Notes under the pieces: generated by a model
The model's input: the letters and a program-made list of their open reading frames with translations, nothing else
The model's database searches: none
What the model was told of the DNA's origin: nothing
Assembly: GCA_027459705.1 (NCBI GenBank)
Contig: DAIDHM010000191.1
Location: 1-47,214 of the forward strand
DNA length: 47,214 nucleotides
DNA from: Ktedonobacteria bacterium
Lineage (GTDB): Bacteria > Chloroflexota > Ktedonobacteria > Ktedonobacterales > JACDGC01
Direction: 5' to 3'
Translations under genes and position numbers: made by a program
Shown: one piece after another, positions 14,638 through 16,389 of the stretch
How positions within the stretch are numbered: position 1 is the first letter of the stretch
Layout: each line of letters opens with the position of its first letter

Positions 14638-15459
14638 ATGCTCGATGCCACACTCAGTTTTTTGACCGCGCTCTTATGCTTTGTCGCCGTCGTCTTCCTC
14701 GTCGACCAGGAAATGGTCAAACCACGTCCGTATAAGGTCGTCTGGGCAATTGGCCTCTTCGTCTATGGCGTCGGGGCACTGGCGCAGTTTTTCGGCACGG
14801 CGGGTCACTGGAATGCGACTGAATATCGCTTCTGGTACCTGGCGGGGGCGATTCTGGCGGCACCTTACCTGGGTATGGGAACCTTCTATTTGCTTGGGCC
14901 GCGTAAATGGGCCGATCGTTTAATGACCTTCCTTGGGGTCTTTACGGCCTATGCCGTCGTGCGCATGCTCACCGCACCGCTCGCGCCACAGGCGCTGGGG
15001 GCGGGGAAAGCCGCATGGCAATTGCCCCACGGCGAGACACTCGCCCACTGGTTCGCGACAGCCTCCAACGCGGACATTGTCAATGGTACTCATCCGCTGG
15101 CTCCCGGCGACATCATCCTGGTCATCATTGTCCTCAACACCCTTGGCGCGCTGGCGCTGGTGGGCGGTGCGGCCTGGAGCGCCTGGAAGTTCTATCAGAC
15201 GCGCCAGAATCCCACCAGGCTCTATTCGATGGTGCTACTCGTGATCGGTGGTCTGGCCCCAACGATGGCGGGGACCTTGACGAAGTTCGGCTTCTCGAGC
15301 GCCTTCTTCGTCCTGACGTTTATCGGTTCTGTCTTCCTGTTAGCGGGCTATCTCGTCAGCATCGATGTCTTCACGGTCTTCCGCATCCCATTCACGGATC
15401 GGGTACTCTTGAAACGAACCATTCCAGAATCCAAAATGGCACAAGCCAAGCGGGCGTAA
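14638..15459 (+). CDS. Polytopic membrane protein of unknown function
   Basis: A 273-residue integral membrane protein with about seven hydrophobic helices, beginning immediately at the N-terminus (LDATLSFLTALLCFVAVVFLV). It ends in a short basic cytoplasmic tail (KRTIPESKMAQAKRA). One longer hydrophilic loop (about residues 117-155) carries HGETLAHWF and HPLAPGD. No catalytic or transport motif is recognised. GAGGAG lies 7 bases upstream of the ATG. A clear terminator follows, so it is probably transcribed alone or with cobA-hemD, 99 bases upstream. Confidence 0.75.
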   Translation: MLDATLSFLTALLCFVAVVFLVDQEMVKPRPYKVVWAIGLFVYGVGALAQFFGTAGHWNATEYRFWYLAGAILAAPYLGMGTFYLLGPRKWADRLMTFLGVFTAYAVVRMLTAPLAPQALGAGKAAWQLPHGETLAHWFATASNADIVNGTHPLAPGDIILVIIVLNTLGALALVGGAAWSAWKFYQTRQNPTRLYSMVLLVIGGLAPTMAGTLTKFGFSSAFFVLTFIGSVFLLAGYLVSIDVFTVFRIPFTDRVLLKRTIPESKMAQAKRA

Positions 15460-15488
15460 ATGTGCCGCACACACGATTCCGCGACACG

Positions 15489-15526
15489 GCAAAAGCGAGG
15501 CATTCTGTCGGGTGCCTCGCTTTTGC
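15489..15526. terminator. Terminator after the membrane-protein gene
   Basis: A perfect 14-bp stem (15489-15502 with 15513-15526) whose arms include AAAA and TTTT. It lies 30 bases after the stop and is a good Rho-independent terminator. Confidence 0.8.
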
Positions 15527-15539
15527 TGTATCGCGGAAG

Positions 15540-15625
15540 TTCACACTTGGGCTGACAATCCTTCGGCTGACAGTACGCGGGATTCCTGGTTCTACCGAGA
15601 GGCCCGGTGGCGGCAGAGAGCTTTC
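15540..15625 (-). pseudogene. Relic of a TnpB C-terminus with right-end-like sequence
   Basis: Read on the minus strand, the segment encodes SLPPPGLSVEPGIPR, the typical end of IS200/IS605-family TnpB proteins. It is followed by GAATCCCGCG and a short right-end-like sequence ending near AGTGTGAA. The same VEPxIPR ending and GAATCCC box occur in the second relic at 34956. No upstream TnpB coding region remains; the foldback element begins next to it. Confidence 0.5.
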
Positions 15626-15628
15626 CAG

Positions 15629-15785
15629 TATAGATTCCAGGAACCACGGTAAAAAAGCTGCAGTTGGGGCACGATTTGTCCTCGCTTTCTGAGATGAAAC
15701 GTGATGTTTTGCTTCACTCTACAGCGACGACAAGCCATGATCACTATTTGCTTGCTAATTTTTACCGTGGTTCCTGGACTCTATA
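15629..15785. mobile_element. 157-bp foldback (MITE-like) element with 27-bp inverted ends
   Basis: Ends 15629-15655 and 15759-15785 are inverted copies with one mismatch, each containing CCAGGAACCACGGTAAAAA. The outermost bases are TA on both sides, which fits a TA target duplication as used by Tc1/mariner/IS630-type transposases. An inner pair (15676-15686 with 15723-15733) is also complementary, so one strand can fold almost end to end. No transposase is encoded. It sits between a TnpB relic and the HNH cassette. Confidence 0.75.
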
Positions 15786-15963
15786 GCAGCGAAGCCTGAG
15801 CCACGGCCTTCTGTACCCTGTGCGGCTACGTCGCCACCTGCGCAAACAGGGCATCGCGCTTTAGTCGCCATCCGCTCCAACTTTCAGGGCACGCTCATTC
15901 CTGTGGCTTGGGGTCTTGAGTATTTTTTTGCAACTTCGCCCTCCTGAGCAATTACGAAACTTT
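15786..15963. other. Gene-free remnant between foldback element and HNH gene
   Basis: Together with 15460-15785 this completes a gene-free stretch of about 500 bases. On the minus strand a 38-codon frame from 15871 into the foldback end starts MATKARCPVCAGGDV; its CxxC motif hints at a truncated zinc-finger gene, perhaps of transposon origin. A T7 run occurs near 15920. No intact gene is supported. Confidence 0.4.
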
Positions 15964-16389
15964 TTATGACTGTGGAAAATGCCCCACGCGCATAAGTCGT
16001 AAGCGCTCGGCAATATTGATCTGGGTATTGAACTGCAAGAGATTTGCTGTTGCTCGCCCACTGGCGGTTATTGGAGTAACGATCCCACCATTTAAGCGAA
16101 AATGACGCCGCCACTGCTGTTTTCGCGGATTGAACAATGGGGTTACTTTTCCGGTATCTGGATCGATTGAAGACAGATCCGCACCTTTATTACGATTGCA
16201 AAGGAAACAAGACCAGGCTAAATTTACTAGGTTGGTAGGCCCACCATGCTTTTCTGCGATAATGTGGTCTGGTTGATGAGGGTATCCACTATCATCTTCA
16301 TGCATCAAGCAATATTCACAGCGCCCTTGCGCACGGTCTCGAACCTGACGGCGCAAATGTTCGGGAACATAGGTCATCTCATGAAGCAT
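15964..16389 (-). CDS. HNH endonuclease
   Basis: A 141-residue HNH nuclease. The motif runs CEYC (zinc pair), then PDHIIAEKHGG with the catalytic-type His, NLVNLAWSC, and CNRNKG closing the second zinc pair. The C-terminal part (residues 75-141), with LFNPRKQQWRRHF, is typical of small free-standing HNH proteins whose targets are unknown. The start at 16389 overlaps the previous gene by 11 bases; an internal ATG at 16377 is an alternative start just after that gene's stop. Base composition is visibly more AT-rich than the neighbours, which suggests acquisition. It could be a self-standing defence or mobile nuclease. Confidence 0.87.
   Translation of the reverse strand: MLHEMTYVPEHLRRQVRDRAQGRCEYCLMHEDDSGYPHQPDHIIAEKHGGPTNLVNLAWSCFLCNRNKGADLSSIDPDTGKVTPLFNPRKQQWRRHFRLNGGIVTPITASGRATANLLQFNTQINIAERLRLMRVGHFPQS

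Follow-up and report, generated by a model that had tools for sequence, protein, structure and literature searches.

A 157-bp palindromic unit in the window (the whole 47,214-nucleotide stretch of Ktedonobacteria DNA that was analyzed) is best explained as what remains, in non-autonomous form, of an insertion sequence of the IS256 (Mutator-type) family, with the leader hairpin of the transposase gene still in place. We put the probability of this reading at about 0.88. The features of the unit, with the transposase orientation corresponding to the minus strand, are as follows:

15629–15785, minus strand: probable internally collapsed IS256-family element, 157 bp, given in transposase orientation
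15759–15785, minus strand: left inverted end (IRL), TATAGAGTCCAGGAACCACGGTAAAAA; matches the left end in C216 at 23/27 positions; end-motif score 10/12
15629–15655, plus strand: right inverted end, TATAGATTCCAGGAACCACGGTAAAAA; 26/27 identical to the left end; end-motif score 9/12
15673–15758, minus strand: transposase leader (5' untranslated region), within stretches that are alike in the C216 (81%) and C189 (83%) copies
15658–15672, minus strand: first five codons of the lost transposase, start included, GTG CCC CAA CTG CAG (MPQLQ in the C216 copy)
15655–15657, minus strand: junction joining the 5' portion of the gene with the inverted end (C216, CAGCTTACCG; window, CAGCTTTTTTACCG); the breakpoint is a probable one
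15670–15739, minus strand: predicted leader hairpin from the fold, with arms at 15723–15739 and 15670–15686, the 3' arm holding the ribosome-binding site and start codon
15680–15683, minus strand: Shine-Dalgarno-like GAGG inside the 3' arm, read from the sequence and the fold
15716–15721, minus strand: -10-like TAGAGT, immediately on the loop side of the main 5' arm, at -49 from the start codon and inside the -50 to -37 peak described below

Analysis of the unit as DNA bore out its description as a 157-bp foldback with near-perfect 27-bp inverted ends. When folded as single-stranded DNA it reached -37 kcal/mol, far below the shuffles (mean -13.9, sd 2.8, z -8.2), none of 200 being as good. The second, inner complementary pair is also real, and is formed on the minus strand by CATGGcTTGTCgTCGCT with AGCGAgGACAAaTCGTG. 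Along all 157 bases, the unit and its reverse complement are 71% alike, a near-total palindromy that arises because two separate causes, the inverted ends and the leader hairpin, act together. We agree with the original prediction that there is no coding capacity, as the unit is below usual gene size and the only listed ORF of at least 100 aa that extends into it is 14907–15692. The TA dinucleotides that had been noted at both borders are indeed present, but they belong to the inverted repeat and are not a target duplication.

The origin of the unit is indicated by its kin in the same genome. A 216-base query searched against its own assembly, a 4.6 Mb draft of 245 contigs from which repeat copies may be missing, matched, apart from the element itself and its reverse complement, two further places: C216:11614-11748 (81%) and C189:28772-28881 (83%). 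Window positions 15655–15789 are homologous to the leader and 5' end of the C216 transposase ORF (81%, E 1.8e-31), and the matching C216 segment consists of part of the inverted end and the leader directly before the ORF, which starts with MPQLQLTVESEQL. That ORF matches Transposase_mut (PF00872) at 3.2e-39, and the piece past an in-frame stop matches it at 6.9e-23. The C216 element is ~1.1 kb long and its far end carries the inverted end GATAGAGTCCAGAAAG, read inward; the copy is diverged and longer than the window unit, and its transposase has decayed. A Mutator-type transposase is thus missing from the window unit and found in its homologous copy. The window has the same end, leader and five codons as C216, followed almost at once by an inverted end, and the unit therefore likely represents an IS256-family element that has collapsed. 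In the C189 copy, what is left is the leader with the initial codons, and the outer end has lost its match. In this second relic (L010, G000:C189, 8668–8862 on the minus strand), which derives from the same IS256-type transposase, a truncated frame comes next.

Transposases of this type are few and damaged in this genome and common elsewhere. The genome-wide PF00872 search returned four matches, of which three have an internal stop and one is a fragment of 55 profile positions; a protein search of the same genome returned six, and the five other than C216 were at most 47% identical. Across the phylum (400 genomes, own included) 96 genomes had a protein relative, the best others being G026 and G014 of the same order, with 60% and 56% protein identity and long open frames. 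The best 80 of 118 relatives kept from a wider scan were mostly from Bacillota, with Chloroflexota, Actinomycetota, Pseudomonadota and more also represented. The view of the unit as a small non-coding insertion-sequence derivative with transposase kin elsewhere in the genome (C216, PF00872) was therefore confirmed.

The ends of IS256-family elements share a register, AGTCC at positions 6–10 and GTAAA at 21–25, that is common to kin in several phyla. Both ends were located in it at 50 loci having a frame of at least 1,000 bases, among them IS256 itself (L142) and IS16 (L145). This set was not de-replicated: L022 and L062 represent one element, and certain rows come from copies within a single genome. 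Both window ends fall in the register, with scores of 10 and 9 of 12. The motif is weak alone, as 14 window positions reach 9/12, two of these being the element's own ends; a score of 10/12 is found in the window at the left end alone. Target duplications of at least 7/8 bases, with one-base offsets allowed, were present in 23 of the 47 relatives with enough flank (22 of them perfect), versus 0.9% with swapped flanks; several right ends seem misplaced (e.g., L110, L132, L144), the effect of which is only to lower this count. No 8–9-bp target duplication was found at the window unit, where the best agreement was 4/9 and was equalled by 64% of swapped flanks.

The window ends are also unusually alike. 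End-to-end identity is 26/27 in the window, versus a maximum of 21/27 and a mean of 18.2 in 36 non-redundant relatives with clear ends; it is 20/27 in C216. Because of this ceiling among relatives, a simple internal deletion does not explain the window ends, and something has made them alike, be it an unusual parent, conversion or template switch. One account, to which we give slightly less than an even chance, is that a full-length element was wrecked in place, its body being lost by deletion or by a hairpin-favored fold-back template switch, with the left end copied onto the right. On our main reading of the unit as an IS256-family relic, a short repeat (CTT/TTACC) next to the right end was probably the site of a deletion or template switch that removed the gene body, and the right end came to be nearly identical to the left. 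The high identity of the ends supports the in-place account, as does the window right end being closer to the C216 left end (22/27) than to the C216 right end (20/27), although that is a thin margin. Against it, a template switch should have copied host flank too, and the inverted repeat ends at the element end.

The same boundary is what would be expected of a true IS256-family MITE, that is, a 157-bp unit that was mobilized in trans, inserted here and has since lost its target duplication. This is a serious contender that we place at somewhat under even odds. Its size, ends and non-coding nature fit, parent-type kin exist in the genome, and both borders of the palindrome coincide with the family end register, as expected after transposition. 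Later transposition is thus favored because the palindrome ends at the element end and disfavored because the duplication is missing, and the PF00872 matches in the 245-contig assembly are all broken or fragmentary. The unit also occurs once in the assembly. A 216-bp DNA search of its own genome, 40 relatives and 400 phylum genomes (own included) yielded no second miniature copy; a weak match in G106 in the phylum search spans window positions 15605–15640, which are largely flank. The end pattern, allowing up to three mismatches, revealed no second unit in the genome, where the two other matches had three mismatches each and the control gave one match. Plasmids, phages and viral contigs contained no miniature copies either, and a first contig scan with an N-terminal fragment returned 93 stretches of which none was confirmed. 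No alignable empty site was found: the family members G004 and G002 have orthologues of the preceding gene (74% and 73%), and similarity does not extend past that gene. Between IS256-type MITE and in-place collapse the balance is nearly even.

The proposal that the unit is a MITE accordingly holds for its shortness, inverted ends and lack of coding sequence, but the draft assembly has no second copy and there is no target duplication. A MITE has ends as in an autonomous element, and the in-genome kin with similar ends is decayed, not autonomous. The combination that had been named as telling against a mobile unit, a single copy together with the same sequence in all relatives, was half borne out: there is a single miniature copy, yet none of the 40 relatives has a match. 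Bacterial MITEs such as those of Pseudomonas syringae and MITECca01 of Cardinium resemble the window unit in being shorter than 300 bp, non-coding and insertion-sequence-derived, with inverted ends. The P. syringae MITEs are frequently mobilized (PMC3189936) and MITECca01 is abundant, with ISCca4 of the IS982 family as its likely parent (PMC9769881). The window unit differs from both in that one copy was found, and from MITECca01 in that its parent is of the IS256 rather than the IS982 family. In comparison to members of the IS256 family (IS256, IS16, ISCth4), the unit is alike in its end register, in the Mutator transposase of its C216 kin and in the leader hairpin, which is predicted in L142 and L145 also; it is unlike them in having no transposase gene and no target duplication, and in having ends more alike than those of the 36 relatives.

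It is highly improbable that the unit is a regulatory palindrome or terminator of neighboring genes with no transposon ancestry. It is intergenic and folds strongly, but the preceding gene already has a terminator-like palindrome at ~15486–15537, the sequence following the orthologous gene in G004 and G002 gave no match, and the unit is homologous to transposase gene starts. An IS630/Tc1 parent, as named in the original prediction, is less probable still and was rejected: TA is present at both borders, and in C216 also lies beside GAGTCC at both ends, but the TA is inside the repeat, relatives' duplications fall outside the TA-equivalent bases, the ends fit the IS256 register, the kin and the homologous gene start are of IS256 type, and DDE_3 (PF13358), the sole IS630-type domain tested, had no match in the assembly.

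Other features were noted on either side of the unit. The 273-aa ORF at 14638–15459 (plus strand) follows a HemD/methylase fusion gene, and the pair is adjacent in G004 and G002 as well; a Pfam search of this ORF gave no match. It is followed at 15486–15537 by the terminator-like palindrome, AAAAGCGAGGCA...TGCCTCGCTTTT, and positions 15477–15538 match their own reverse complement at 81%. On the other side, the ORF at 15964–16389 (minus strand) encodes an HNH endonuclease (PF01844, 4.4e-11). DNA-similar places occur in its own genome (C142), and several in G004 and G002, and to judge from these similarities it perhaps belongs to a multi-copy HNH gene group.

The leader is the part of the relic that its relatives help to interpret. 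In the transposase orientation CATGGcTTGTCgTCGCT pairs with AGCGAgGACAAaTCGTG, and the latter carries the ribosome-binding site and start codon. Helix 1 of the hairpin has 15 pairs, with 95.6% of cells paired across the three in-genome copies, and there is one compensating change, U-A to C-G, in the main helix; covariation among these copies was not above that of shuffles (220/500). Rfam gave no match up to E = 1 over 15500–15900. Leaders of relatives, read by eye and in ten cases folded, have hairpins at the same place with a different sequence. Many IS256-family leaders (among L065–L143) contain GAGCCAT, which is exactly complementary to the ATGGCTC at the start codon, and the start codon itself would therefore be in the stem.

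To assess the pairing across the family we assembled 117 loci (113 plus four plasmid loci), of which 101 had a located start. Enough upstream sequence, with the start near its expected place, was available for 88 leaders, and 79 remained after those at least 80% alike were dropped. RNAalifold found no pair in a sequence-only MAFFT alignment of 48 leaders (the 52 of 79 that passed filters, minus L105, L109, L131 and L144, removed by hand). An arm-permutation test stood in for the RNAalifold-based model R1, which had no pairs. In this test the duplex energy of the 5' arm (-72 to -37) with the 3' arm (-30 to +8) is computed and the arms are re-dealt among leaders. Own arms gave a mean of -26.8 versus -17.1 (sd 0.47) for permuted arms, a value reached in none of 10,000 permutations (n = 79, IS256 included), nor in 10,000 once the C216 leader from the same genome was left out (n = 78). 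The own arm was the best partner in 23 of the 79 leaders, among the top five in 49 and above the median in 76. Relatives share arms, and relatedness therefore lowers the contrast that this test detects; for leaders below 60% identity (n = 61) z was -19.4, with 60 of 61 better than the column median. Arms displaced upstream retained a small residual excess (z -2.6, n = 77). The window leader, which is outside the set, gave -30.7 with its own arms when sliced at the same positions, whereas none of the 79 other 5' arms did as well (mean -14.4).

Predicted accessibility pointed in the same direction. The ribosome-binding site was free at 0.31 in transposase leaders versus 0.43 in other ORFs, and the start codon at 0.27 versus 0.48, the comparison being with the 73 of 152 control ORFs from the same loci that have a ribosome-binding-site-like motif. 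Shuffling of the upstream letters freed the site from 0.29 to 0.46 and the start codon from 0.26 to 0.46; the real leader lay under its shuffled mean in 48 of 61 cases for the site and 51 of 61 for the start codon. The site and/or the start codon was paired upstream at P > 0.5 in 57 of 61 leaders (site 48, start codon 50). With the transcript cut at -36 in silico, the site was free at 0.53 and the start at 0.60, and the site was freed in 54 of 61 leaders, largely because the cut removes the pairing partner. In the leaders of relatives, an upstream arm thus shows conserved pairing with the ribosome-binding site and start codon. On these folding models, the inner pair of the window unit corresponds to the transposase leader hairpin, which covers both of these signals, and such a hairpin is a trait of many IS256-type relatives.

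The position of a promoter-like motif suggests how an element might escape its own hairpin. By the rule TAnnnT with at least 4/6 identity to TATAAT, 42 of 79 leaders have a -10-like hexamer between -50 and -37, compared with 7 and 1 in the neighboring intervals of equal length; the other 37 have none there by this rule. The parent hairpin would block translation of transcripts entering from outside, and a promoter with its -10 at the 5' arm would give a transcript without that arm, because a start just downstream of the hexamer would leave it out. The published junction promoter of the IS256 family has its -10 within the left end (PMC7780238). That position is upstream of the 5' arm, so the hairpin would also be part of junction transcripts, which counts against such an escape; its role may therefore be that of a general damper. 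As the window unit yields no transposase, its hairpin would now be passive.

Structured transposase leaders are known from other families. Fold-back inhibition of IS10 and IS50 acts through transposase leader structure that bears on translation. The structure of the ISPpu9 transposase 5' untranslated region is also reported to bear on translation and to hide the ribosome-binding site (PMC8450116). So far as these accounts go, the window leader is like those of ISPpu9 and IS10/IS50 in that secondary structure of the 5' untranslated region bears on translation of the transposase, and unlike them in the -10-like hexamer beside its 5' arm; this hexamer points to read-through transcripts as those that would be blocked. 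Among the literature matches listed, we found neither a description of a leader hairpin in the IS256 family nor an experiment on such a leader.

The window relic itself is ordinary, routine genome debris, and the leader is the interesting part. We tentatively propose, with a little less confidence than a coin toss would carry, that IS256-family elements across phyla have a leader hairpin in which the ribosome-binding site and start codon are hidden, together with a built-in -10 at its 5' arm, such that transposase would be made from the element's own promoter only; that the window unit preserves this device; and that such hairpins may seed palindromic miniatures. A leader hairpin in so large a transposon family suggests how its transposase stays silent after an element has landed inside active genes.
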